From NCBI GenBank assembly GCA_016197225.1, contig JACPWC010000121.1:1-33088 (forward strand): 33,088 bases of DNA. Direction: 5' to 3'. The DNA is from Chloroflexota bacterium. GTDB lineage: Bacteria; Chloroflexota; Anaerolineae; Anaerolineales; VGOW01. Of this stretch, positions 8,384 through 32,930 are shown piece after piece. Within the stretch, counting starts at the first letter, position 1. Every line of letters begins with the position of its first letter. The notes under the pieces are model-generated. The model made no database searches. It had not been told where the DNA came from and saw nothing but the letters and a program-made list of their open reading frames with translations. A program made the translations under genes and the position numbers.

Positions 8384-10044
8384 TATTGGCCGGGCTTGAG
8401 TGACCAGACCGAGTAGTCGCCGGACTCGAAAATTTTGATCAGGTATTTGGCTTGAAGCGCCGGGTCAAAGCGCCCGAGGTTCTGCTCGTGCGAGCCGACG
8501 ACGACGTAGGGCGCGCCCATCAACGAGTAATCCGAAAACCGGCTCTCGCCCGGAGTCCGGGCGCTGTAAAACGCGGCGACAGTATCGCGCTTGGTCTCAA
8601 GGTAGGGTGTCTCGGGGCCGTGGCCGATATAAGCCACAAGATAGCCGTAGGCCGGGAGCGAGTTGCCGAACTCAAACGACGACAAGACTACTTGCCTGGG
8701 CGGCAGACTGCGCGCCAGAAAAACGTACGTTGCCACCTGATCTTTGGTTTGATAGATCGGCTCGGCATAAGTGGATACCGCCGCCAGCCCGCCAACCCAG
8801 ACCAGGGCTGTGGCCGGCAGGGAGACCGCCACCAGCACCAGCGGCGCATACCGTCGAATACGTTTTCCCACTTTGAGGCGGCTAAACCGGGCAATGCCCG
8901 CCGTCAGCCCCAGAATCGCCAGAGCCACCAGCGGCAGTTGTGCGCCCTCTGCCAGCCGTCGTTGCAAGTTGTAAGGAAGATAGAGCAACATCGGCAGAGT
9001 CAGCATCCAACCGAGCGCCAGCGCCCAGGCCGCCAGATTGCGACGATAGAGCGAGCGCAAGCCAAACAAGCCGGCCAGCGCCAGCAGGCCCCAGGCCGAA
9101 AGGTAATGCCAGGGCGCGGGCGAGAGAATGATGTTCTGTGCGCTCCAGGTCTGATAAGTTGTGTCGAGGTTGAAAAGCAAGAAGGTGTAGAGAACAACCG
9201 GAACTCCGCCGGAGGCGGCCAACACGGCCACACCTAACGCGCGCGTGGCCGTGCCGCCCAGGTCAACACCGCGAATCAATTCTGACTCGCCTTGCCGGAA
9301 TGCAATCAACATCAGGAGAACGATGTGGGCCGTCAGCAGAACAAAGATGATGAGCATGTAGAGCGGCTGGACGAGGGTCATGAGAAACCAGGCCGCTCCG
9401 GCGGCGAACGCCCACAGCCAGCGCCCGCGCACGGCCCAGAGATAAAACAACAGGCCGCCGAGAAAAAAGACTCGCGAGGCCGAAAGATGCGGCAGGCTGT
9501 AGAGATCGAGAAAAGTGAACGCTTCCGGAGAATAAAACTCCAACGGGGTCCCCGGCGCGCGAAGAGCGGCCAGCAACCACCCCAGCCCCCCGCCCAACCC
9601 GACGAGGATCAACCCCAGCCGCCGCTGGCGCACCAACGGCAACAGTTCGGCGAGGAAGAGGTAGGAGACGAGCAACAGGGCGAAGCCCCAGAAGAGCCGG
9701 GCGGCGTGATAGCCGAAGACCAGGGCGCCATGAAGCCGAAGCGGGTCGCCCGTGCCGACAATCCAGCCGATGAACTTGCCAAGCAGGATATAAAACAAAA
9801 AGAAGAGCGAGCGCGAGTGTTGTTCGACGGCGTAAGGCATTTGAAACAGCCACTGGCCGTGAGCGCCCAACTGCATTTTTGCCAGATACGAGTTGCCATC
9901 CTCAACGCCGATGACGAAGCCCGAAAACCGCCAGGCCTCATTCGAGCGCGCCAGGCCAACCAGGTAAGGCGCGGCGGTGAACGACATGACCAGCGTTGAA
10001 AAAATAACAGCCCACAACCACTCTTTTAGTTTGATGCGGATCAT
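8383..10044 (-). CDS. Multi-pass membrane protein, GT-C-like
   Basis: 553 residues with about twelve hydrophobic segments. The first long external loop contains GVEDGNSYLAKMQLG (about 46-60), an acidic loop motif of the kind seen in GT-C transferases, followed by GQWLFQMPYAVEQHS. There is a C-terminal soluble region (about 450-553) with LPPRQVVLSSFEFGNSLPAY and a short basic end. It overlaps the gene before it by 4 bp (10041-10044) and the gene after it by 1 bp, so it is embedded between two YfhO-type genes in one tightly coupled operon. It probably takes part in the same surface-glycan pathway. No named family or substrate can be assigned from sequence alone. Confidence 0.75.
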   Translation of the reverse strand: MIRIKLKEWLWAVIFSTLVMSFTAAPYLVGLARSNEAWRFSGFVIGVEDGNSYLAKMQLGAHGQWLFQMPYAVEQHSRSLFFLFYILLGKFIGWIVGTGDPLRLHGALVFGYHAARLFWGFALLLVSYLFLAELLPLVRQRRLGLILVGLGGGLGWLLAALRAPGTPLEFYSPEAFTFLDLYSLPHLSASRVFFLGGLLFYLWAVRGRWLWAFAAGAAWFLMTLVQPLYMLIIFVLLTAHIVLLMLIAFRQGESELIRGVDLGGTATRALGVAVLAASGGVPVVLYTFLLFNLDTTYQTWSAQNIILSPAPWHYLSAWGLLALAGLFGLRSLYRRNLAAWALALGWMLTLPMLLYLPYNLQRRLAEGAQLPLVALAILGLTAGIARFSRLKVGKRIRRYAPLVLVAVSLPATALVWVGGLAAVSTYAEPIYQTKDQVATYVFLARSLPPRQVVLSSFEFGNSLPAYGYLVAYIGHGPETPYLETKRDTVAAFYSARTPGESRFSDYSLMGAPYVVVGSHEQNLGRFDPALQAKYLIKIFESGDYSVWSLKPGQ

Positions 10045-22468: not shown

Positions 22469-22544
22469 GTAGGGGCGAAGCATTCGGAAATCAATCTCGC
22501 AGTTCGCCAAGCGCCCCGCCCCGCGAAGCGTGCTTCGTCCCTAC
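22469..22544. repeat. GTAGGGGCGAAGC-type inverted repeat overlapping the mazG stop
   Basis: GTAGGGGCGAAGC (22469-22481) and the complement of GTAGGGACGAAGC (22532-22544) form imperfect arms (one mismatch in 13) around about 50 nt. The TAG stop of the leftward mazG gene (22541-22543) is part of the right arm. It is related to the repeat at 6031-6105 through the GGGGCGAAG core. Confidence 0.7.
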
Positions 22545-23986
22545 ATCCTCTTCGCTTCTTCCCACAACACATCCATCTCTTCCAACGTCAGCGCACTCAA
22601 TTCTCTGCCTTGCGCCTTTGCTCCGGCTTCCACGTAAGCAAAGCGTTTGGCAAACTTCTCGTTGGCCTCACGCAGGGCAACTTCGGGATCAATGTTCAGC
22701 CAGCGCGTCCAGTTGACGATGGCAAAGAGCAGGTCGCCCATCTCTTCGGCCCTCGCCTTCTCACCTTCAGCCGACTCGATCTCGGCCATCTCTTCGTGAA
22801 TCTTGGCCTTGACGCCGCTCACGTCCGGCCAGTCGAAGCCGACGCGGGCGGCGCGAGATTGATAGGTGTGAGCCTGAGCCAGCGCAGGCAGGGCCGCCGG
22901 GATGCTGGACAGCAGGCCGTTTTTCTTCTTCTCAGAATTGCCCGCCCGTTCCTGTTCTTTGAGCTTTTCCCAATTCGCTAACACTTCCCCGGCCCCGCTC
23001 ACTTTCAGGTCGCCGAACACGTGCGGGTGGCGGCGAATGAGCTTGGCGTTGATGTCGCCGATCACGTCGGCCATGTGGAACTCGCCGTCGTCAATGGCAA
23101 TTTGCGTTTGCAGGACGACTTGCAAAAGCAAGTCGCCGAGTTCTTCGCGCAACATCTGCGGGTCACCAGCGTCGAGGGCGGCCAACGTTTCGTAAGCTTC
23201 TTCCAGCAAATGCGAGCGCAGAGTCTGGTGCGTCTGCTCACGATCCCAAGGGCAACCGTCGGGCGCGCGCAGGCGGGCGATGGTGTTCTGGAAAGTCTCG
23301 AACGAGCCGGGGCGGGTGATGGGAGAGATGAAGAGAGAGGAGAGATGAGAAATGTGCTCTGAATGATCGATTTCATGCAACGGCAACCACTCAACTCTTT
23401 CATCGGGCGTGCCGACGGCGTGGACGAGGGCCACTTCGTGATCATCGTTATACTGATTCATCAGCGTCAGCTTCACGTCCGAGGCCAGGCCGGCGCTGTA
23501 GAGTTGGGCGACGAGGGCGGGCGTGTCGGGGCTGAACGAAGGATGAGCGCGAGTTGCCAGATCGAGGGCGTCGGCGACGAAAAGGCCGGGGAGCGCGTCC
23601 ACGTTCAACGCCAGCAGAGACGGCTCCACAAAGCTGAGTCCGGCGATGAGGCGCACCGGCAAGTTCATCTCGGCGGCGCGTTTGCGAATCCCTTCCACCG
23701 TCGCTTCGCCCACAGCCGGGTGGCCGGGCACGGCGTAAATCACGCCTTCGGGCCGCCGGCCAAGTTCCAGCACGCGCTCGACAATCTGCCGGTACACCTC
23801 TTCAAACTTTTCGGTCGCATCGTAAATGTCGTCGAACGAGTGAACGGTAAGCGTGGAGGGCAAGCCGTCCAGAGTTGGATGACGGGCGGTGCGGGCATAG
23901 ATTTCTGTGGCGCTGATGAGCGCGTCCCACGCTTCACGGGTGAGGTGATTTGGGTTGCCGGGGCCGAGGCCGAGTATGGTGATCAT
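22541..23986 (-). CDS. mazG: Tetrapyrrole methylase-MazG fusion (YabN-like nucleotide pyrophosphohydrolase)
   Basis: 481 residues. The N-terminal tetrapyrrole (SAM) methylase-like domain (1-215) starts ITILGLGPGNPNHLT and has VIYAVPGHPAVGEATV. Two MazG domains follow. The first contains CPWDREQTHQTLRSHLLEE, the metal ligands in LLEEAYETL and LREELGDLLLQVV; the second has EEMAEIESAEGE and AEEMGDLLFAIVN. MazG hydrolyses (d)NTPs to NMPs and pyrophosphate and cleans up aberrant nucleotides. The same fusion is known as YabN in Bacillus. The start ATG at 23986 is supported by TACAAT 7 nt upstream; the longer reading frame to 24076 has no support. Its stop is supplied by a dispersed repeat. Confidence 0.93.
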   Translation of the reverse strand: MITILGLGPGNPNHLTREAWDALISATEIYARTARHPTLDGLPSTLTVHSFDDIYDATEKFEEVYRQIVERVLELGRRPEGVIYAVPGHPAVGEATVEGIRKRAAEMNLPVRLIAGLSFVEPSLLALNVDALPGLFVADALDLATRAHPSFSPDTPALVAQLYSAGLASDVKLTLMNQYNDDHEVALVHAVGTPDERVEWLPLHEIDHSEHISHLSSLFISPITRPGSFETFQNTIARLRAPDGCPWDREQTHQTLRSHLLEEAYETLAALDAGDPQMLREELGDLLLQVVLQTQIAIDDGEFHMADVIGDINAKLIRRHPHVFGDLKVSGAGEVLANWEKLKEQERAGNSEKKKNGLLSSIPAALPALAQAHTYQSRAARVGFDWPDVSGVKAKIHEEMAEIESAEGEKARAEEMGDLLFAIVNWTRWLNIDPEVALREANEKFAKRFAYVEAGAKAQGRELSALTLEEMDVLWEEAKRM

Positions 23987-23993
23987 GGGCGGT

Positions 23994-23999
23994 ATTGTA
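23994..23999 (-). promoter_or_regulatory. -10 box of mazG (leaderless start)
   Basis: TACAAT on the minus strand ends 7 nt before the ATG (ACCGCCC between), so transcription should begin at or next to the start codon. No Shine-Dalgarno and no clear -35. Confidence 0.55.
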
Positions 24000-24071
24000 C
24001 ACGGGTTAGTTGCCGACGAAAGGCCGCGTGGCGCTTTTCCAAGTTGCGCCTGTCCTGGCGCACAAACTGTC

Positions 24072-24103
24072 TTCATCCCGATTTCATCTTTCCCTGCTAA
24101 ACT
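24072..24103 (+). promoter_or_regulatory. Direct-repeat operator and -10 of the response-regulator gene
   Basis: TTCATC (24072-24077), 5 nt, TTCATC (24083-24088), 9 nt (TTTCCCTGC), then TAAACT (24098-24103). The 11-bp period puts both sites on one DNA face, as for OmpR/PhoB-type regulators, and there is no normal -35 so activation is likely. The same layout recurs at 26212-26243. AAAGAGAA then precedes the ATG at 24129. Confidence 0.6.
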
Positions 24104-24128
24104 CCCTTCAATCCCAAAGAGAATCTTT

Positions 24129-24818
24129 ATGCGCGTATTGATTGTCGAAGACGAACGAAAAATTTCAGCCTACGTCAAACGCGGCCTTGAAGAGCAAGGC
24201 TACGCAGTTGACGCCGCTTTCACCGGGCGTGAAGCACTGGATTGGGCGGACACGGTGACGTTCGATGTCATTGTGCTGGATATTCTGTTGCCAGAACTCG
24301 ACGGTCTGGCCGTCTGCCGCGAATTACGAAAGCGCGGAGTCCGCGCGCCGATCCTCATGCTCACGGCCCGCGACGCGGTGGACGATCGGGTAGCCGGGCT
24401 GGACGCTGGCGCAGACGACTATCTCGTCAAACCATTTGCTCTCAAAGAACTATTGGCTCGCCTGCGCGCGCTCACCCGTCGCGCCGCCGATGCGCCAAAA
24501 TCGGCGCTATTGGAGATCGGCGATCTGAGTCTCGACACCCTCACCCACCGGGTCAAACGCGGCGGCAAATTGATTGAACTCACCGCCAAAGAATATGCCG
24601 TGTTGGAATGTCTGATGCGCGAGCCGGAGCGTGTCCTGACCCGCACTATGATTGCCGAGCATGTTTGGAATTACGATGTCTTCAATCAATCCAATGTGGT
24701 GGATGTTTACATCCGCAACCTGCGCCGGAAGATTGACGATGGCTTCGAGGTGAAACTGATCCACACCATTCGTGGGGCAGGCTATCGCCTGTCGGCAGAG
24801 GACGATGAAGCGGCTTAG
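24129..24818 (+). CDS. OmpR/PhoB-type response regulator
   Basis: 229 residues. The receiver domain (1-115) has the acidic pocket VEDE (Glu7, Asp8, Glu9), phospho-acceptor Asp51 in IVLDILLPELDG, Thr79 in LTAR and Lys101 in VKPF. The winged-helix DNA-binding domain (about 125-225) has LTAKEYAVLECLM, the recognition helix region NVVDVYIRNLRRKID and the C-terminal hairpin IHTIRGAGYRL. This is the CusR/MprA-like type. The ATG at 24129 starts the receiver domain correctly; the open frame upstream runs against mazG. It overlaps its kinase gene by 14 bp. A direct-repeat element before it is repeated before the lipoprotein gene, which suggests that it regulates both. Confidence 0.95.
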   Translation: MRVLIVEDERKISAYVKRGLEEQGYAVDAAFTGREALDWADTVTFDVIVLDILLPELDGLAVCRELRKRGVRAPILMLTARDAVDDRVAGLDAGADDYLVKPFALKELLARLRALTRRAADAPKSALLEIGDLSLDTLTHRVKRGGKLIELTAKEYAVLECLMREPERVLTRTMIAEHVWNYDVFNQSNVVDVYIRNLRRKIDDGFEVKLIHTIRGAGYRLSAEDDEAA

Positions 24819-26199
24819 GACTCTGCGCGCCCGTTTTGCCTTGTGGGTGGCGGCCTTGCTTTTAGCCGTCCTCGTCGCCTTTGGCGCGCTGGTTTACTTC
24901 AGCCTGGCGCGTGACTTGTCGGCGGCCATAGACGACTCGCTGCAGTTGAGCGCCTCGCAAGCCATCGCCGCGGTGAACATTGAAAACGGCCAAATCAACT
25001 TCGCCGACAGCATTCCCGAAAACCCGACTGTAACCACAACCGGTGAGCGCGATTTGACCATTCGCATCTTCAACCCTGGCGGGCAGATCATTCAGGCATC
25101 CGGGGAGTTTAGCGCCTGGCCGGCCACCGCCGCGAGCATTACTGCCGCCCGACAACAACGCTCAACTTTTGAAACCCTGGCCGACCCCAAGGAGCAAATT
25201 CTCGTGCGCTTCTACACGGGGCCTATTATCGAGAACGGCCAACTCATTGGCATCGTTCAAGTGGCCCAGGACCTGGAAGATGTGCAAAAAACTCTCAACC
25301 GCTTGTTGCAGGCCTTACTCATCGGCGGGCCGTTATTGGTCCTGGTGGCCGCGTTCGGCGGCTATTTCCTTGCCGCTCGCGCCCTGGCCCCGATTGACCA
25401 AATCATTCACACGGCTCGGCGTATCTCTGCCGAAGATTTATCGGCCCGGCTCAACCTGCCTGCCACCGACGATGAAGTCGGGCGGCTGGCGACAACCTTT
25501 GACGCCATGCTGGCGCGGTTGGATGAGTCATTCAAACGCGAGCGGCAGTTCACCGCCGACGCCTCACACGAACTCCGCACGCCCTTGGCCGCCATGCAAG
25601 CCATTCTCGGCGTCATTCGCGAAGAGCGCCGCACCCCCGAAGACTACGAGCAAGCCCTCAGCGACATATCCGAAGAGGCCGACCGCCTGCGCGCCCTGAC
25701 AGAAGATTTATTGCAACTGGCGCGCGGCGACACTCAGTCGCCTGCCGCTTACGCGAAAATTGATTTATCGGCGTTGCTCAACGATGTTGCCGACTCACTC
25801 CGCCCACTGGCCGAAGCCAAAGGACTGGCGCTTAATTGCAACATTCCCAATGGCTTATTCCTCTCCGGCGAGATGGACGGGTTGATTCGGCTGTTTGTGA
25901 ATCTGGTAGAGAACGCTGTCAAGTATACCGACGACGGCGCGATCACCCTCTCAGCCCAGGCCGAGGCCGATCAGCTCCGGATCATTGTGGCCGACACCGG
26001 CCCCGGCATCCCCCCGGAGCATCTCCCCCGCATCTTTGATCGTTTTTATCGCGTGGACGCCTCGCGCACTCAACGCGGCGCAGGCCTGGGCCTGGCCATT
26101 GCGCTGGACATTGCCCGCGCGCACGGCGGCGCGATTGAAGTGAGCAGTACTCTGGGCGCAGGATCAGCATTCACCGTACAACTGCCCGGATTAAGATAA
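24805..26199 (+). CDS. Sensor histidine kinase, partner of the regulator
   Basis: 464 residues from the ATG at 24805 (MKRLRTLRARF), inside the end of the regulator gene. TM1 is about 10-33 and TM2 about 168-190, with an extracytoplasmic sensor of about 130 residues between them that has no recognised motif. HAMP (about 190-245) contains LAPIDQIIHTARRIS. The H-box is FTADASHELRTPLAAM with phospho-acceptor His255. The ATPase domain has FVNLVENAVKYTDDG (N), ADTGPGIPPEH (G1), FDRFYRVDASR (F) and GAGLGLAIALDIARAHGG (G2). All catalytic boxes are intact. A membrane-spanning sensor next to a lipoprotein target suggests an envelope signal; the ligand is unknown. Confidence 0.95.
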   Translation: MKRLRTLRARFALWVAALLLAVLVAFGALVYFSLARDLSAAIDDSLQLSASQAIAAVNIENGQINFADSIPENPTVTTTGERDLTIRIFNPGGQIIQASGEFSAWPATAASITAARQQRSTFETLADPKEQILVRFYTGPIIENGQLIGIVQVAQDLEDVQKTLNRLLQALLIGGPLLVLVAAFGGYFLAARALAPIDQIIHTARRISAEDLSARLNLPATDDEVGRLATTFDAMLARLDESFKRERQFTADASHELRTPLAAMQAILGVIREERRTPEDYEQALSDISEEADRLRALTEDLLQLARGDTQSPAAYAKIDLSALLNDVADSLRPLAEAKGLALNCNIPNGLFLSGEMDGLIRLFVNLVENAVKYTDDGAITLSAQAEADQLRIIVADTGPGIPPEHLPRIFDRFYRVDASRTQRGAGLGLAIALDIARAHGGAIEVSSTLGAGSAFTVQLPGLR

Positions 26200-26211
26200 T
26201 CGCGGTTTCGT

Positions 26212-26243
26212 TTCATGGTCACTTCATCTCCCCTGGCTATAGT
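26212..26243 (+). promoter_or_regulatory. Direct-repeat operator and -10 of the lipoprotein gene
   Basis: TTCATG (26212-26217), 5 nt, TTCATC (26223-26228), 9 nt (TCCCCTGGC), then TATAGT (26238-26243). Spacing is identical to the element at 24072-24103 and the block before the -10 is also alike (CCCTG). No normal -35. The leader to the ATG at 26312 is about 60 nt and carries AAGGAGA at 26297-26303. Confidence 0.65.
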
Positions 26244-26311
26244 GTAGCTAACACCGGACGACGGCGTGTCGCCCGAACCAGTTCAGGGAGTACTACAAGG
26301 AGAAAAGCAGA

Positions 26312-27691
26312 ATGCGTTACAGAATCAGTATCATCGTATTTGCAATGCTCGCTTTTGCGCCGGCATTGACTGCCTGCGGTGGGAAAGCGGCCGCGATCAA
26401 CACACCAGCCCAATCTCAACCCACCGCTACAATCGCCAACCCCACCCATGTTGGCAGCGACGGACAGACCGGCGACTCCGCCAGCTTCCCCACCTTTTCC
26501 AGCCCGACGAACATCACCAACCTGTTCTTCCCGGTCTCGTCCATCGGCCAGACAGTCTTGCTGGGTCAGGAAGGCGGCGCGTCTCTCCGCGTTGAAACCA
26601 CGCTGTTGCCCGACACGAAAGCTATCGTCTGGCAGGGTGGCCAGACAGAAGTACGCGTAGTCCAGTATGTGGCTTACGCTGACGACAAGCTGGTCGAAAT
26701 CGCTTATGATTACCTGGCCCAAGCCGACGACGGCGACGTGTATTACTTCGGTGAAGACGTTACCAACTACGAAAACGGGCAGGCGGCCAATCACGATGGC
26801 TCCTGGCTGGCAGGCAAGGACGGCGCGCCTCCGGCGGTCATCATGCCAGCCCATCTCGAAGCGGGCATGATCTTCAATCCAGAAAATTTGCCCGGTGTCG
26901 TCTTTGAAACCGATGAGGTGATGTCCGCGTTGGAAAAGACAACGACGCCCAAAGGCCCGATTAACGATGGAGTGCTTATCAAAGAGACGCTTATGGACGG
27001 CAGCATCGAGTACAAGGTGTACGCCGCCGGTTATGGCGTAGTCGAAGAACGAGCAGAAGGCGCTCAGGTCAACCTGGTTTTGCTGAATCAAACCAATGCC
27101 GCTCCCGGAGTCGTGCCCGGCGCGCTACAAACCATCGAGGCGCAGGCCGAAGACATCATAGACATCGCACCGGTTGGCGATTGGGCCAAAGTGAGCGCCA
27201 ATGTCGCGGCCACTGTCGAGGCATGGAAAGCCTACCAGACGCAAGCCACACAAGATGGCGCACCCCGGGCTTTTCAAGACGCACTGGCCTCGGCGCTCGA
27301 CCGCTTACAGACTGCGTCAACCGCTAAGGATTCGGCGGCGACCATGCAGGCCGCCAACAACCTGAGCGCCACCGTGGTTGACCTGTTCAATGTCTACCAT
27401 CCCTCTGTCCCCGCCGACATTGGGCGTCTTGATGTGCTGGAACGGCAAATCTTCCTCGACGTGGCGGCCAGCAACTTGACTGCCGCCGCCGACAACCTTG
27501 CCAAAGTCAACATGGTTTGGGTGCGGGTCAGGCCTTCCATTCTTGCCCATAATAGCGCAGGCGTAGCCACGCAGTTTGAGGCCAGCCTCACTGCGCAAGC
27601 GAACGCGCTCGAAGAGAAAGACGTAAACACCCTCACTGCCGAAGCCAAGAACGGTTTGGAAATCGTGGATGCATTGGAGAAAGTTTATTAG
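26312..27691 (+). CDS. Lipoprotein of unknown family, probable target of the two-component system
   Basis: 459 residues. Lipoprotein signal with lipobox LTAC (Cys22), then a short Ala/Pro/Thr linker. The first half (about 60-255) is beta-rich, with FPVSSIGQTVLLGQEGG, ETTLLPDTKAIVWQGGQTEVRVV, LVEIAYDYLAQADDGDVYYFG and EYKVYAAGYGVVEE; this looks like a compact domain that handles a small ligand or metal, but no site can be named. The second half (about 270-459) is almost all helix, with repeated Ala-rich segments (VSANVAATVEAWKAYQTQ, AADNLAKVNMVWVRVRPSI, EALEKVY-like end), possibly a bundle. AAGGAGA is well placed. The promoter matches that of the regulator. A terminator follows at 27737. Stress, metal or redox roles are open guesses. 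Confidence 0.85.
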   Translation: MRYRISIIVFAMLAFAPALTACGGKAAAINTPAQSQPTATIANPTHVGSDGQTGDSASFPTFSSPTNITNLFFPVSSIGQTVLLGQEGGASLRVETTLLPDTKAIVWQGGQTEVRVVQYVAYADDKLVEIAYDYLAQADDGDVYYFGEDVTNYENGQAANHDGSWLAGKDGAPPAVIMPAHLEAGMIFNPENLPGVVFETDEVMSALEKTTTPKGPINDGVLIKETLMDGSIEYKVYAAGYGVVEERAEGAQVNLVLLNQTNAAPGVVPGALQTIEAQAEDIIDIAPVGDWAKVSANVAATVEAWKAYQTQATQDGAPRAFQDALASALDRLQTASTAKDSAATMQAANNLSATVVDLFNVYHPSVPADIGRLDVLERQIFLDVAASNLTAAADNLAKVNMVWVRVRPSILAHNSAGVATQFEASLTAQANALEEKDVNTLTAEAKNGLEIVDALEKVY

Positions 27692-27736
27692 ACGATTGGG
27701 ACTTGCGAAAAAATAGATGCCGCCTTAATATCATGG

Positions 27737-27764
27737 GCGCAGGCCGAGCACAATCGGCTTGCGC
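27737..27764 (+). terminator. Probable terminator of the lipoprotein gene
   Basis: GCGCAGGCCGA (27737-27747) pairs with TCGGCTTGCGC (27754-27764), 10 of 11 with one G-T pair, around a 6-nt loop, followed by the T-rich TCATTTCAATTT. It ends the regulator-kinase-lipoprotein region. Confidence 0.65.
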
Positions 27765-27772
27765 TCATTTCA

Positions 27773-27791
27773 ATTTGGGCCAGGCCCAAAT
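27773..27791. promoter_or_regulatory. Perfect palindrome upstream of the GTPase gene
   Basis: ATTTGGGCC, a single A, then GGCCCAAAT. The 19-bp near-perfect dyad is too tight to be a good RNA hairpin and is better suited to binding a dimeric protein. It lies about 110 bp before the GTPase -10, so a link to that gene is possible but unproven. The rest of the gap to 27897 shows no supportable gene. Confidence 0.4.
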
Positions 27792-27897
27792 CCTACGAAC
27801 AGGCCAAAATGGAGCGATGCCGTGATCGAGTTTGCCGACATTGTGGGCGGCAAAGTGCCGGGCCGCTCGTCGCCATTTTATTTTAGCGAATTGGAGT

Positions 27898-27903
27898 TAG
27901 AAT
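27898..27903 (+). promoter_or_regulatory. -10 box of the GTPase gene (leaderless start)
   Basis: TAGAAT is followed by CGGCCC and the ATG at 27910, so 6 nt separate the -10 from the start codon. The upstream stretch (27871-27903) is AT-rich, unlike its surroundings. No Shine-Dalgarno. Confidence 0.5.
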
Positions 27904-27909
27904 CGGCCC

Positions 27910-29187
27910 ATGCCTTCCTTCGACGACCTCATCAAAGAATTCCCCCTCGCCACCCGCGAGCAACTCAAAACCACCTGGGACGCTCTGCCCGCCCCAGCCC
28001 AGGACGAACTGAAAAAGTCGCTGGACTACCTGCCCAAAGACTTGACGATGTGGCGGATGTTGCTGGGGCTGTCGCTCACCCAGTTCAAGATCGCCTTCGG
28101 CGACAAGCAAAAGGTCGCCATCGTCGGCCCGGCCAACGTGGGCAAATCCACCCTCTACAATCAACTCATTCGCGCGAAGGACGACAAGGCCGAAGTGAGC
28201 GCCCTGCCCGGCACGACGCGCGTCAACCAGGAAGCCGACTCGGGTTTGTTTGCCCTCGTTGACACGCCCGGCGCGGACGCGGTGGGTGAAGTGGGCGAAG
28301 CCGAGAAGGCGCACGCGCTGGCGGCGGCCCGCGAGGCCGACTTCCTCATCATCACCTTCGACGCCATTCAGGGCATCAAACGCACCGAGCAGGAACTGTT
28401 CGACGAGCTCAACGCGCTGGGCAAGCCGTTCATTGTCGTTCTGAATAAGATTGACTTGGTGCGGCGCGAGGCCGACAAAGTGGTGGAACGGTCAGCCGCC
28501 AACCTGCGCCTCCAGCCGGAACAAGTCATCCCCGTCGCCGCCAAAGACGGCAAGAACCTGGATCGAGTGTTGATGGCGATTGCCAAGACCGAGCCGGAGA
28601 TCGTAGCCGCGCTGGGCAAGGCCTTGCCCGAATATCGCTGGCGGCTGGCCTGGGCCGCCATCACCGGGGCGGCGTCCACCTCTGCCGTTATCGCTCTCAC
28701 GCCCCTGCCCATTTTTGACGTGGTGCCTCTGCTGGCGGTGCAATCGTCGCTCATCCTCGGCGTCGCCCGAATTTACAACTACAAGATTACGCCGGAGCGG
28801 GCCAAGGAACTGACGGTGACGTTTGGGCTTGGGTTTTTGGGGCGGACTCTGTTTCAGGAGCTGAGCAAACTGGGCGGGCCGCCCGGCTGGTTGCTCTCGG
28901 CGGCCATTGCTTCGTCCACGACCGTCGTCATGGGCTACGCCGCCATCGTCTGGTTCGAGAGCGGCGAAAAACTCACCGGCGAGTCTATGAAGAAGATCAC
29001 CAAGCAGTTGACCGATTACTTCATCGAGTCTCTGCGCAACCTGGGCAAGAAGAAGCCGGACAAGAAGAGCCTGCAGGAGACCATCGCCCAGTCGTTGGAA
29101 AACTCGCCGCTGGCCGCCAGCCGCGAGACGCTGGATAAAGAAGCTGAAACCGACCAAAAAGATTCAGCCGCTAATTCCGCGAATTGA
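27910..29187 (+). CDS. Membrane-associated Era-type GTPase with DUF697 domain
   Basis: 425 residues. A helical N-terminus (1-65) precedes the G domain: G1 GPANVGKS (73-80), G2 Thr in PGTTR (about 102), G3 DTPG (118-121), G4 NKID (179-182) and G5-like PVAAKDGKN (about 209). After it come hydrophobic helices (about 240-345) with AAITGAASTSAVIALTPLPI and FDVVPLLAVQSSLILGVARI, the DUF697/YcjF pattern, then a charged Lys/Glu-rich tail. Such proteins are thought to act at the membrane; their role is not settled. The start is set by the -10 only 6 nt upstream. The stop lies in an inverted repeat shared with the leader of the next gene. Confidence 0.9.
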   Translation: MPSFDDLIKEFPLATREQLKTTWDALPAPAQDELKKSLDYLPKDLTMWRMLLGLSLTQFKIAFGDKQKVAIVGPANVGKSTLYNQLIRAKDDKAEVSALPGTTRVNQEADSGLFALVDTPGADAVGEVGEAEKAHALAAAREADFLIITFDAIQGIKRTEQELFDELNALGKPFIVVLNKIDLVRREADKVVERSAANLRLQPEQVIPVAAKDGKNLDRVLMAIAKTEPEIVAALGKALPEYRWRLAWAAITGAASTSAVIALTPLPIFDVVPLLAVQSSLILGVARIYNYKITPERAKELTVTFGLGFLGRTLFQELSKLGGPPGWLLSAAIASSTTVVMGYAAIVWFESGEKLTGESMKKITKQLTDYFIESLRNLGKKKPDKKSLQETIAQSLENSPLAASRETLDKEAETDQKDSAANSAN

Positions 29188-29222
29188 CACGAGTTATTCG
29201 AATCAATTCGCGATAATTCGCG
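29178..29222. repeat. AATTCGCG repeats between the GTPase and FTCD genes
   Basis: CGCGAATTGA (29178-29187) is inverted at 29203-29212 (10 bp) and AATTCGCG recurs directly at 29205-29212 and 29215-29222. The GTPase TGA is within the left arm. The elements fill nearly all of the 48-bp gap. Confidence 0.65.
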
Positions 29223-29235
29223 ACAAGAGCCAACT

Positions 29236-30753
29236 ATGACTCAACTCATCGAATGTGTTCCCAATTTCTCAGAAGGCCGGCAGGCAGACGTGATTCAGGC
29301 CATCGCCGATTCGATTCGGGCGGTAGCCGGGGCACAGATGCTCAACATTAGCTCGGACGTTGACCACAACCGCACGGTGATCACGTTCGTCGGCGATGCC
29401 GCCGCGGTGGAGGCCGGCGCTTTCGCCGCCATTGCCAAAGCCGCCGAACTGATCGATCTCGACCAGCATCACGGCGAGCATCCCCGGCTCGGAGCGACCG
29501 ACGTGGTTCCCTTCATCCCGATTCGCGAAGCCACGATGGAAGACTGTGTTGCCATCGCCAAACGGCTCGGCGAGCGGGTGGGAAGCGAATTGAACATCCC
29601 CGTTTATTTATATGAGGCGGCGGCCACGAGGCCGGATCGGGAGAATTTAGAAAACGTCCGGCGGGGCGAGTACGAAGGTCTAAAAGCAGAGATCGGCTCC
29701 AATCCTGCTCGCCAACCGGACTTCGGCCCGTCGCAAATCGGCAAGGCCGGGGCGACCATCATCGGCGCGCGCCAATTTCTCATCGCTTACAACGTCTATC
29801 TCAACACGAGTGATGTCAACATCGCCAGGAAGGTTGCGAAGGCCGCGCGTCACTCATCGGGCGGCTTGCGCTTTGTGAAGGCGCTGGGTCTGCTAGTGGA
29901 GGGCCAGGCGCAGGTGAGCATGAACCTGACCGACTTCACCAAGACGCCGGTGTATCGCGCCGTCGAACTGGTGCGCCGCGAGGCGGCGCGTTACGGGGTG
30001 AGCGTTGCGCGCTCCGAGTTGGTTGGGCTTGTTCCGCAAGCGGCGCTGGTGGATACGGCCCAGTGGTATTTGCAACTCGACGGCTTGAGCGACGATCAGA
30101 TTTTGGAGAACAAGCTGACGGCACGCTTCGCGCCGGAGACACAATCCGATTCATTCCTCAACGCCATTGCCGCCGGAACGGCCACGCCCGGCGGCGGCGC
30201 GGCGGGCGCTTACGCCGGGGCGATGGCCGCCGCGTTGGTGGCGATGGTGGGCCGTGTCACCGTTGGCAAAAAGAAATACGCCGAGGTGGAGGCCGAGATG
30301 CAGGAGATGATCACCGCCGCCGAAAAACTGCGGGCCGATCTCACCGCCGCCGTCGCCGCCGACATCGAAGCCTTTGAGGCGGTAATGGCCGCCTACAAAC
30401 TCCCCAAAGCCACCGAGGCGGAAGTTGCAGCGCGTGGTGAAGCCATTGAGCGCGCCAATCATGGCGCAACTGCCGTGCCACTGCGCGTGGCCCGCGATGC
30501 GACGAGTGTGTTGGGGCTGGCCGCCCTGGCGGCTGAGAAAGCCAACGTCAATGCCATCTCGGACGCCGGTTCTGCCGCCAACATGGCAATCGCCTCTCTG
30601 CGCGCCGCCGCCCTCAACGTGCGCATCAACGCCGCCGGGATCAAAGATCGCGATGCGGCCAACTTCTGGCTGAGCGAGGTGGCCTCGCTCGAACACCGGG
30701 CGGCGGATACGTTTGAGGCTATCAACCGGACGATTGTGGAGAGGATGAAGTAG
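29236..30753 (+). CDS. ftcD: Glutamate formimidoyltransferase / formimidotetrahydrofolate cyclodeaminase (bifunctional)
   Basis: 505 residues, the length of the fused enzyme. It moves the formimino group from formiminoglutamate to tetrahydrofolate and then releases ammonia to give methenyl-THF, in histidine breakdown and one-carbon metabolism. The formimidoyltransferase part (1-300) starts ECVPNFSEGR and has DVDHNRTVITF and HHGEHPRLGATDVVPF with the expected catalytic His82, then RQFLIAYNVYLNT and QAQVSMNLTDFTKTPVYR. The cyclodeaminase part (about 310-505) has AAGTATPGGGAAGAYAGAMA, MVGRVTVGKKKY and NVNAISDAGSAANMAIASL. No other histidine-degradation gene is visible in the window. ATG start; GAG in AAGAGCC is a weak ribosome site. 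Confidence 0.96.
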   Translation: MTQLIECVPNFSEGRQADVIQAIADSIRAVAGAQMLNISSDVDHNRTVITFVGDAAAVEAGAFAAIAKAAELIDLDQHHGEHPRLGATDVVPFIPIREATMEDCVAIAKRLGERVGSELNIPVYLYEAAATRPDRENLENVRRGEYEGLKAEIGSNPARQPDFGPSQIGKAGATIIGARQFLIAYNVYLNTSDVNIARKVAKAARHSSGGLRFVKALGLLVEGQAQVSMNLTDFTKTPVYRAVELVRREAARYGVSVARSELVGLVPQAALVDTAQWYLQLDGLSDDQILENKLTARFAPETQSDSFLNAIAAGTATPGGGAAGAYAGAMAAALVAMVGRVTVGKKKYAEVEAEMQEMITAAEKLRADLTAAVAADIEAFEAVMAAYKLPKATEAEVAARGEAIERANHGATAVPLRVARDATSVLGLAALAAEKANVNAISDAGSAANMAIASLRAAALNVRINAAGIKDRDAANFWLSEVASLEHRAADTFEAINRTIVERMK

Positions 30754-30943
30754 GGATAAAGACCCTTGCCCCTTTTTGGGGCGCAAGCGCAGGTGCGGCA
30801 CGGGGATTGCAGCGGACGGCTTCGCTCCGCCGCTACTGATGCCGACCGTTGGGCGCACCACTAAGTTGCCGTCGCCGCGATAGCGGATACTTCTTGGCAT
30901 CCTAGGTGTGACCCGACCCTTCAGAACCCAGCCTGAACCAATT
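30754..30943. other. Intergenic stretch with palindromes, no gene seen
   Basis: GCCCC-TTTTT-GGGGC at 30768-30782 makes a small hairpin just after ftcD and may help end its transcript. Further on, GCGGA and TCCGC at about 30811-30829 form another small palindrome. The open frame on the minus strand through this region mostly mirrors ftcD and is not supported. Confidence 0.4.
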
Positions 30944-31372
30944 TTACTTCTCCACCATCTGCTTCACCCGCCTCGCCTGTTCGTCCATTGACTTCTGCAT
31001 TTGTTGCTTGACCATGGCCTCTGCCGCCGCCGGGAAGCCGCCCGCCAGTTCCATCGAAACGGTCAGCTTCGTCCCACTTCCAGCCGCCTCAAAAAGATAG
31101 ACCGTCTCAACCGGCGTGGGGACGCCGGTCGTCTTGACGCTCCATTTCTGGTTCGGCTCAAAGGCCGAGACCTGCAATTGCGTCTGCATTCGGTGGCCCA
31201 TGACTTCGGAAGTGTAGTGATAGATTGAACCGACGCCGACCGGGCCGTCCGGCGTGACCTTCGCCTCAAGCACGCCGGTTTGCCAGGCCCTATGATTCTC
31301 GACGGCGATGACGTAGGCGAAAACTTTTTCGACGGGTTGATTGATGGTGATGCTGGAAGATACGGTTGGCAT
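30944..31372 (-). CDS. SRPBCC (START-like) family protein
   Basis: 142 residues, typical for the polyketide cyclase/dehydrase type of SRPBCC proteins with a single helix-grip fold and a hydrophobic pocket. It starts VSSSITINQPVEKVFAYV, the common first strand and helix, and has VGVGSIYHYTSEVMG, the strand GTKLTVSMELAGG and a long last helix (EAMVKQQMQKSMDEQARRVKQ). No catalytic residue or ligand is apparent. The start ATG at 31372 is chosen over the longer frame because AAGGAGA lies 6 nt upstream. It faces ftcD convergently and diverges from the lipoprotein gene at 31516. Confidence 0.88.
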   Translation of the reverse strand: MPTVSSSITINQPVEKVFAYVIAVENHRAWQTGVLEAKVTPDGPVGVGSIYHYTSEVMGHRMQTQLQVSAFEPNQKWSVKTTGVPTPVETVYLFEAAGSGTKLTVSMELAGGFPAAAEAMVKQQMQKSMDEQARRVKQMVEK

Positions 31373-31378
31373 GTGGAG

Positions 31379-31401
31379 TCTCCTTGTGGGGAGAAAGTAT
31401 A
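31379..31401 (-). promoter_or_regulatory. -10 and ribosome site of the SRPBCC gene
   Basis: TATACT (31396-31401, minus strand) and AAGGAGA (31379-31385) stand in the normal order with a short leader. No convincing -35. Confidence 0.6.
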
Positions 31402-31515
31402 CCCTAGCGTTGGCCTTTATTACCAAACCGTAACACGGCATTACAGAAAAAAAAGAGGGTGTGAGAATACAAGTAATGAAGTAAAAGTATGATGGGAGAA
31501 GAAGGAAACGTCACT

Positions 31516-32535
31516 ATGCAATACCGCTTCAAACATTCTCTTCTTTTGTCGGCAATTGTCACAGCAATGGCATTGATTATCAGCTGCGCTTCCCCATCCA
31601 TCCTGACACACTTCCCAACTTCAACTACCACACCTGCTTCAACGGCAACCAATACCGTTCAGCTAACTGCCGTTCCGACATCAACTTCGCAACCGCCCAC
31701 AAAAGCCCGCACCCCAACCTCAGCACACCCGGCTGAACTACCTACCTCAACTCCAGGTTTTGATATTGACTTTAATCTGACGGCTACTGCGGTCGTCGGA
31801 CAACTTGTCGCATCAGGTTCTTCAAAGATCGAGTCCTATTTTTCGCCAGATAGAAAGTGGCGAGCCGACTTTGTTTCCTATGAGTGCATGCACGTTGAGG
31901 GCAGTGTTGACGCAAATTCGTATGAGGAAATGAAACTTGTCGAGATGAGCACTGACATTGAGAAGGTTATAGCCCATCAATTTATCTATTGCGGCGGCCT
32001 CGGCGCTTATGGCCTGGGTGGCCTCTTCTGGTCATCGAATAGTCGTTACTTCTATTACACCGAAACCAGAGAAGGTGTTCCTGATGGGTGTAATCTTTTC
32101 GGGGAAAAGCCGATCTCACGCTTGGACGCAACCAACTTACAGACAGAAGGGTTGGGAGCAGGCCCGCTTTCACCTGACAAAACAAAACTGGCGACATGGG
32201 AAAACAACGGAATTAGCGTTTGGAGTCTTGACGATGGTAAACTGGCCAGCTTTTCAGCGGTCATGCCAGGCGGTACAGGAGGCCCTATTGCCTGGTCGTC
32301 TGGCAGCCAATCCCTGGTTTATTTGCAAATCGATTCAGAGTGCCCCCCATCCGGAAAGACTAGGCTTGGGCTAATTGACTTACCAACCATGAAGCAGAAA
32401 TTACTGGTCGAGTCTGAAGAGGTTGGTTTTTTGAGCGTGCGTTGGGAAGGCTTTGCTAGGCTGATATTGAGCGACTTTCAAGGCAAAGAATGGCACTACG
32501 AGTTTGCAACGGGCGAACTCAAGCCCGCGCAATGA
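31516..32535 (+). CDS. AT-rich lipoprotein, possibly a beta-propeller
   Basis: 339 residues from the ATG at 31516, which has AAGGAA upstream; an ATG at 31489 lacks a ribosome site. Lipobox IISC (Cys24), then a long Thr/Pro/Ser linker (about 27-75). The body has recurring strand-turn units of the TolB/WD40-like kind: IESYFSPDRKWRADFVS, GLFWSSNSRYFYYTE, GPLSPDKTKLATWENNGISV and GGPIAWSSGSQSLVYLQID. Number of blades is unclear. Composition is clearly more AT-rich than the main part of the window, as for the lipoprotein at 857. A sensor or binding function on the cell surface is inference. Confidence 0.8.
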   Translation: MQYRFKHSLLLSAIVTAMALIISCASPSILTHFPTSTTTPASTATNTVQLTAVPTSTSQPPTKARTPTSAHPAELPTSTPGFDIDFNLTATAVVGQLVASGSSKIESYFSPDRKWRADFVSYECMHVEGSVDANSYEEMKLVEMSTDIEKVIAHQFIYCGGLGAYGLGGLFWSSNSRYFYYTETREGVPDGCNLFGEKPISRLDATNLQTEGLGAGPLSPDKTKLATWENNGISVWSLDDGKLASFSAVMPGGTGGPIAWSSGSQSLVYLQIDSECPPSGKTRLGLIDLPTMKQKLLVESEEVGFLSVRWEGFARLILSDFQGKEWHYEFATGELKPAQ

Positions 32536-32555
32536 GCATCTGGTTCAGTAGTGTT

Positions 32556-32930
32556 TCACGGATTCACCTGTAAGTTAATCTCAAGATTATCGTAACATGC
32601 GTCAGGGATAGGACAATCGACAACAATCTCCTCTGGATAACCGTATTGAGCATTATATGAAATTGAGCAGTTCAACCACGGAAACCAAAAGGCACAGCTT
32701 TGAGCCGTATTGAACAGGGCTGAGATTGTTAATTCATTGAAGTCTTGCGGCTGACAATCTGGGCACATCAAATTCGAACCATTATCGATTTCTCCATTTC
32801 GAATTAACAGCACTGTTTCTCCTTGGAAAAACTTGTGCGAAACTCTCTTGATAGTCAAAGAGTAGTTTTGCAACCGAGCGGCGTCCCACTTCATATTACT
32901 GGACACATTGATGCCAAACGCCAGAAGCAA
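32556..32930 (-). pseudogene. DUF6174-like ORF, probably 5'-truncated by an IS
   Basis: The frame has W-x-x-x-x-x-x-x-Y near its start (KWDAARLQNYSL), a VLLIRNGEI strand, TISALFNTAQ, and SYNAQYGYPEEIVVDC, which together resemble the DUF6174 family of small secreted or lipoprotein domains. Four cysteines are spread over the C-terminal half. There is no clear start: a TTG at 32928-32930 or ATG at 32892-32894 are possible, neither with a ribosome site. The frame stays open upstream to the transposase stop at 32967-32969, in the same frame, through a hydrophobic LGIYLAHLLLAFGI. The signal peptide expected for the family is probably lost or altered. Composition is AT-rich. It could still be expressed from an unusual start. 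Confidence 0.5.

Follow-up and report, generated by a model that had tools for sequence, protein, structure and literature searches.

In Salmonella, the response regulator PhoP recognizes a hexanucleotide direct repeat with a 5-nt separation; the box, in direct orientation, stands roughly one turn of the helix ahead of the -10, and phoP has such a box in its own promoter (PMC3335776, in extract). BqsR of the BqsR/BqsS system of Pseudomonas aeruginosa, which has been described as responding to ferrous iron, was reported to be an activator on TTAAG-N6-TTAAG, with the proximal pentamer overlapping the -35 in the promoter that was dissected (PMC4682146, in extract), and the gene directly upstream of BqsS encodes a PepSY protein (PMC12714742, in extract). 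In the DbfQRS system of Vibrio cholerae a kinase and a regulator are accompanied by a small exported partner, the PepSY protein DbfQ, which binds DbfS; positive autoregulation was suggested, and such modules occur across phyla (PMC12714742, in extract). The regulator-kinase pair UipRS of Microbacterium is encoded upstream of the gene for the exported PepSY protein UipA, a partner that binds uranium (review PMC8963506, in extract), and in the QseE/QseG/QseF system of E. coli the lipoprotein QseG is encoded with the pair and activates the kinase QseE by contact (PMC6075780, in extract). Here we describe a locus in a draft genome of a Chloroflexota bacterium (Anaerolineales, VGOW01; assembly GCA_016197225.1), within the 33,088-nucleotide stretch analysed (the window; contig JACPWC010000121.1, positions 1 to 33,088), where two near-identical direct-repeat sites precede the gene of an OmpR-type response regulator (RR), which is followed by a sensor histidine kinase (HK) gene, and the gene of a lipoprotein (LP). 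Judging from sequence comparison, these sites are very probably operators of the regulator encoded between them, which would activate its own RR-HK operon and, separately, the LP gene; the whole most likely belongs to a known kind, the self-activating OmpR-type systems, its lipoprotein partner being the unstudied part.

Both sites lie on the forward strand. Operator 1 (24072-24088) consists of the tandem half-sites TTCATC-N5-TTCATC with an 11-bp period and is followed by the predicted -10 TAAACT (24098-24103), the whole element TTCATC-N5-TTCATC-N9-TAAACT spanning 24072-24103 on the 5' side of the RR gene (24129-24818, 229 aa). Operator 2 (TTCATG-N5-TTCATC, 26212-26228) starts 12 bp past the kinase stop codon and, together with the predicted -10 TATAGT of the LP gene (26238-26243), forms TTCATG-N5-TTCATC-N9-TATAGT at 26212-26243. 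An initial annotation, made from the letters of the window, had these coordinates, the order and the spacing right, but called the operators identical, which holds only nearly, as the first half-site (TTCATC vs TTCATG) and the -10 (TAAACT vs TATAGT) differ. The CCCTG block that it saw before the -10 is indeed present in both sites, but its distance to the -10 differs by one base (CCCTG-C-TAAACT vs CCCTG-GC-TATAGT), and between the sites lies the kinase gene, as it said (24805-26199; 464 aa; HAMP, HisKA, HATPase_c and an ArlS_N-like sensor), but the regulator gene (24129-24818) as well, the two genes overlapping by 14 bp. The OmpR type of the regulator is confirmed by Pfam matches to Response_reg (107.1 bits, cut-off 30.2) and Trans_reg_C (96.3 bits, cut-off 26.2), and tandem half-sites with an 11-bp period are present and conserved, which would suit head-to-tail binding of the OmpR/PhoB type. 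Promoters with a direct repeat of 5-nt gap standing where the -35 would be, a turn away from the -10, are known to be activated in PhoP/PhoQ, from which the present sites differ in that the PhoP half-site is (T/G)GTTTA, the box lies 11-12 nt rather than nine from the -10 and many promoters are targeted; the extract of PMC3335776 describes no such lipoprotein partner. BqsR/BqsS shares the 11-bp period but has another half-site, and no relative of the present LP is described in the extract of PMC4682146. The present system looks like the autoregulated systems of the PhoP and BqsR type and is, as a kind, known.

The draft genome (4,807,384 bases, 126 contigs) was searched for TTCATN-N5-TTCATC-N9-TANNNT, as the initial annotation had proposed: the two window sites are the sole matches, the pattern read backwards has none, and shuffling the window 100 times with dinucleotides preserved produced none. 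For the looser TTCAT-N6-TTCAT there are nine matches (backwards control 0), so the repeat alone is not unique; with up to two mismatches to TTCATC-N5-TTCATC-N9-TANNNT there are 13 matches compared with two in the control, and only the window pair has fewer than two mismatches. What sets the window pair apart is the spacing to the -10 and the position in front of these genes. Two of the nine matches are those of the window, two overlap in a triple repeat on contig C37 and one, on C123, is promoter-like, with N10 to the -10 on both contigs; those on C16, C71, C114 and C122 do not look promoter-like by eye, three of them apparently lying at the ends of coding frames (C16, C71, C122) and that on C114 being without a -10. 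A large regulon in this genome was not seen among the nine matches, which were inspected, while the two-mismatch matches were not followed singly, and the clear second target here appears from the sequence to be the lipoprotein gene. The C37 repeat (G000:C37:33145-33171, L062 5146-5172) reads TTCATT/TTCATT/TTCATA, 10 bp from TAGAAT, and is a candidate third target of the regulator; the genes behind it encode a lipoprotein, a PG_binding_1 protein and a MacB-type ABC transporter, and the gene before it encodes a paralogue of the window LP (31% identity), which itself stands behind an AcrB-type pump. At G000:C123:31686-31702 (L063 3687), TTCATC-N5-TTCATC with TAAAAT at N10 lies six bases ahead of the start codon (ATG) of a lipoprotein-like gene with a Peptidase_MA_2 match just under the cut-off, and overlaps the 5' end of the longest reading of a divergent gene.

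Absence of the sites upstream of orthologues had been named as an outcome that would speak against the operators. In a class sample of 396 genomes (own included), 39 of which have a regulator at E <= 1e-82, up to 300 bp upstream of the RR genes were scored with a fixed, window-derived model (the 12 bases of the half-sites and TA...T, with gaps of 5 and 9), with p from 200 dinucleotide shuffles (floor 1/201, 0.005); the own copy and L059, where the contig starts inside the gene, were excluded from the orthologue count. The site is kept in 12 of 16 RR orthologues (71.8-85.2% identity; p = 0.005), where it matches 12 to 15 of the 15 model bases, and in none of 26 distant regulators (50.0-54.8% identity) at p <= 0.01; the latter are mostly paralogues, with L020 among them in a similar module with other half-sites. 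For the half-sites alone, 10 or more of the 12 bases match in 12/16 loci when the gap is 5, and in no more than five loci at any other gap from 0 to 20, and given the half-site pair, TA...T follows at gap 9 in 12/16 loci and at other gaps in at most four. In two loci with altered gene order a site stands at the new start: in L119 (the L080 locus) it lies farther upstream, before a PepSY-like gene that precedes RR-HK, and in L121 (the L099 locus), where the order is LP-RR-HK, a site with three repeats stands before LP.

Equivalents of operator 2 were sought behind the kinase orthologues of 14 loci other than the own (52-66% identity, no less than 60 bp of sequence past the gene), with mononucleotide shuffles as control. 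A site lies 6-18 bp past the kinase stop in six of the 14 loci (L112, L114, L115, L111, L117, L060), with scores of 12-15 (p = 0.002). The genes behind these sites encode PepSY proteins in L111, L112 and L117 (Pfam) and in L114 (by similarity), a short exported protein resembling a PepSY leader, with no Pfam match, in L060, and a PF04185 phosphoesterase in L115. Further sites occur within related loci: L112 has separate ones before RR, PepSY, a PAP2 phosphatase and a further lipoprotein gene, and L113 (G443:C35:51000-64000) has four, before the regulator, a VTT-PAP2 fusion, a PepSY-leader-like protein and a family-2 glycosyltransferase. From the identity of these genes it follows that the sites tend to precede genes for exported or membrane-lipid proteins. 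At L110, whose regulator is 85% identical, a short frame of the BacA family (undecaprenyl-diphosphatase family; 9527-9970) adjoins a PepSY-like gene.

For the shape of the promoter, 26 sites were picked by hand from the own and related genomes (two of them from the window), weaker or overlapping ones being omitted (e.g. L126, L061, L077, L118 plus strand, L112 4463 and 3657/3668), and owing to this picking only columns outside the half-sites and TA...T are informative. Among these, T at position 18, directly after the second half-site, is conserved in 25/26 sites and A at position 30, within the -10, in 20/26. At the extended -10 position (columns 24-25), T is found in 20/26 and G in 16/26, so that the conserved part of the block seen by the initial annotation is TG and not CCC; TG occupies this position in the first window site (24095-24096) and lies one base earlier in the second. 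The lack of a -35 was likewise upheld, since the best match to TTGACA at spacer 16-18 does not exceed 4/6 in any of the 26 sites (mean 2.73 vs 2.46, sd 0.18, in shuffled sequence); a weak TGGTCA at 26216 falls within the second operator.

A profile-guided search of named genomes for relatives of the LP returned 262 loci, the best 80 of which were analysed. They include members of Chloroflexota, Streptomyces, Jiangella and other Actinomycetota, Gemmatimonadota and Verrucomicrobiota, with a few archaeal records, and in 38 of the best 80 of the 262 loci both RR and HK are near LP. Twenty-eight loci have RR, HK and LP in this order on one strand (23 from Actinomycetota and five from Chloroflexota, by record title); the other 52 were left out, 51 with no regulator upstream of LP on the same strand of the stretch examined and one without a kinase end. 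Two TCA triplets at a distance of 11 bp are found between kinase and LP in 23/28 ordered loci (reverse-strand control 1/28) and upstream of RR in 15/28 (control 3/28). Between kinase and LP, distances of 10 (14/28) and 21 (13/28) are raised too, a pattern that triple repeats would produce, and a distance of 20 occurs in 5/28 of the RR upstreams. GTTCAG is the prevailing half-site in Streptomyces and Jiangella.

Some diverged regulators with the same gaps have other half-sites, whose classes were assigned by eye: in G009 the regulator is preceded by CTTACA-N5-CTTGCC-N9-TATAAC, a PepSY-like gene by a triple repeat, and a gene for a protein similar to the C-terminal part of LP by CTTGCC-N5-CTTACC-N9-TATGAT. 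The recognition-helix stretch reads [IV]RNLRRK in 15/17 rows of the TTCATC class, IGYLRRK in 3/3 of the CTTACC class, [VI]GHLR or VR[RH]LRNK in 13/13 of the GTTCAG class and RYLR in 10/10 of the CTCATC/TTAATC class. It is suggestive that the helix tracks the half-site class in these alignments, a correspondence confounded with descent. The top-scoring NCBIfam models of regulator and kinase are TIGR01387 and TIGR01386; as both fall below their curated cut-offs (258.7 < 279.2 and 286.3 < 292.55, respectively), assignment as a CusR/CopR heavy-metal pair (CzcR-SilR-CopR) was rejected.

Several observations weigh against the sites as operators through which the neighbouring regulator activates. Four of the 16 orthologues have no site within 300 bp upstream (L077, L078, L080, L099); at L077 a site 0.9 kb upstream with N10 is a post hoc reading, and at L078 none was found upstream or farther out. 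Regulators of 55.3-66.7% identity reach the p floor with the TTCATC model in only 5/23 cases, and four other genomes of the genus (63-97% complete) have regulators of only 52-54% identity and no LP match (0/4). LP itself is present in 12/396 genomes of the class sample (own included); this patchy distribution of the module is compatible with transfer or with gain and loss. Behind the kinase, 8/14 loci lack a site at the expected place: the site of L110 is weaker and 104 bp past the kinase (p = 0.007), and in 7/14 loci none was found, with only 117 bp of sequence examined at L074. The Actinomycetota loci were assessed for the 11-bp period only, and no TA...T at N9 was seen in Streptomyces or Jiangella; many related loci are moreover close kin, so that the counts overstate independent evidence. 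Furthermore, RYLR is likewise found in 7/7 site-less regulators compared, so that the helix type is not specific. Finally, site conservation by itself would fit either sign of regulation. Repression through real operators, with the regulator blocking RNA polymerase by binding over the -35 position, is nevertheless improbable: the sites do overlap that position, but there is no -35 to block, the best matches being near the shuffled mean, and the extended -10 with its fixed 9-bp gap fits activation, as in the single direct PhoP box of Salmonella at 11-12 nt from the -10 (PMC3335776, in extract).

Less probable still is binding by another OmpR-type regulator of the genome, with the neighbouring pair as a target and not the source. 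Paralogues are many (110 candidate stretches for the regulator query), and tandem TTCAT sites exist elsewhere too, on C37 and C123, but the site tracks the orthologues of the neighbouring RR and not the distant regulators, and recognition helices differ by half-site class, with the caveat of RYLR in site-less regulators. Chance or coding constraint as the source of the repeats is scarcely credible and was set aside on account of the empty window shuffles, the genome-wide uniqueness and the conservation across genomes. The matches at apparent frame ends on C16, C71 and C122 and that without a -10 on C114 would fit it, as would the overlap of operator 1 with the 5' end of a divergent mazG-type gene on the minus strand in its longest reading (22541-24076); two full-length matches from congeners align with this gene only from residue 21 or 24, however, so that operator 1 is probably intergenic, and the true mazG start probably lies inside the longest reading, near 23986.

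Under activation by the neighbouring regulator, which remains the preferred reading, the following course is inferred for binding by the regulator, the positive sign of control, the signal and the part played by the LP. The membrane kinase would sense a signal, probably derived from the envelope, and phosphorylate the regulator, which would bind head to tail to the half-site pair with its 11-bp period, where a -35 is missing, and help RNA polymerase to the -10 nine bases downstream. In this way the regulator would turn on its own RR-HK operon and separately the LP gene, and the positive feedback could sharpen or prolong the response. The LP would be exported, anchored in the membrane and serve the same response; it may also act back on the kinase, for which the PepSY protein DbfQ and the lipoprotein QseG offer precedents. 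That the present LP acts on the kinase is, by this analogy, possible but doubtful, the tie between them consisting of co-location and the shared operator.

The LP (26312-27691, forward strand, 459 aa) has a signal peptide with the lipobox LTAC, as read by eye from the sequence with no prediction program. As the initial annotation held, it has no known family, with no match in Pfam or NCBIfam, although relatives are widespread; no Pfam or NCBIfam family recurred consistently among 55 aligned members (DUF4363 in 7/55, best E 0.0003). An AF2 model (pLDDT 86.7, residues 1-56 low) predicts a LolA/YmcC-like N-terminal beta domain at about 57-263 and a C-terminal helical region at 270-458 with eight helices, and the N-domain modelled alone reaches a pLDDT of 94.0. 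In fold comparison with VIA-align the N-domain is closest to YmcC-like 3fzx (Z 11.6, rmsd 3.7, 165 aligned), followed by DUF1849 (10.8), LmcA (9.5), RseB (7.6) and LolA (7.5); with Foldseek neither the whole model nor the N-domain had a match at E <= 0.001, and the LP profile found nothing below E 0.37 in the PDB. The RseB, MucB and LolA matches (Z about 6.5-7.6) were set aside as being in a range where only the arrangement may be shared, and so were matches of the C-domain to four-helix proteins (PsbQ type, Z up to 14.7), which reflect a common arrangement. The model suggests that the LP may be a lipid-binding protein. L121, L123 and L124 have longer relatives (672-690 aa) that match the N-terminal beta domain twice. 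An unlikely extension would make RR-HK-(PepSY)-LP an envelope-sensing system of three components, as yet unnamed and widespread in Chloroflexota and Actinomycetota, in which the LP, with a LolA/RseB-like lipid-binding domain on helical bundles, would serve the kinase as ligand-binding input besides being the main target, reporting a lipid or polyprenyl-phosphate intermediate handled by the PAP2, VTT-PAP2, phosphoesterase and perhaps MacB proteins encoded behind the same kind of operator.

Among systems with an exported partner, dbfQRS is similar in that PepSY genes follow the kinase gene in relatives of the present locus, but the partner here is a 459-aa lipoprotein with its own operator. The locus is not a dbfQRS-like module, because no PepSY was found among the nine window proteins scanned (22541-32930). 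The genome has one PepSY match at E <= 0.01, in a different setting on C123 and with no TCA-N8-TCA within the surrounding 3.1 kb, whereas among relatives a PepSY gene is near the pair in L111, L112, L117, L138 and L153 (L192 is below the cut-off; L060 and L156 have no match). UipRS/UipA, compared by description only, shares the regulator-kinase pair upstream of an exported partner gene, but the partner is a PepSY protein, and the extract of PMC8963506 describes no operator. QseEGF, with QseG likewise compared by description, has a lipoprotein encoded alongside the pair, but its targets are sigma-54-dependent and its operon is without autoregulation (PMC6075780, in extract). In the open-access literature no description of the lipoprotein partner and its breadth was found, judged from listings, and nothing on a TTCATC direct repeat with a response regulator or on a PepSY domain with a direct repeat and a two-component response regulator; nothing on the present system was found for TTCAG repeats in Streptomyces (titles and abstract starts), and nothing on-topic for OmpR operators in Chloroflexota (full text, judged from the listing). 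The sites would amount to an operator code for Chloroflexota two-component systems, an 11-bp tandem repeat 9 bp from an extended -10 with no -35, which would extend, for the 11-bp period only, to the GTTCAG-type repeats in Streptomyces and Jiangella strains. The tie of an LP family with no Pfam or NCBIfam model to RR and HK makes its function approachable through the pair.

The remaining features of the locus lie around the LP gene. AAGGAG at 26297-26302 (forward strand) is its likely ribosome-binding site, and a possible terminator hairpin follows on its 3' side (27733-27768, forward strand), a weak call, as such sites are as numerous as expected by chance. Farther downstream are a GTPase gene and then a formiminotransferase-cyclodeaminase gene.

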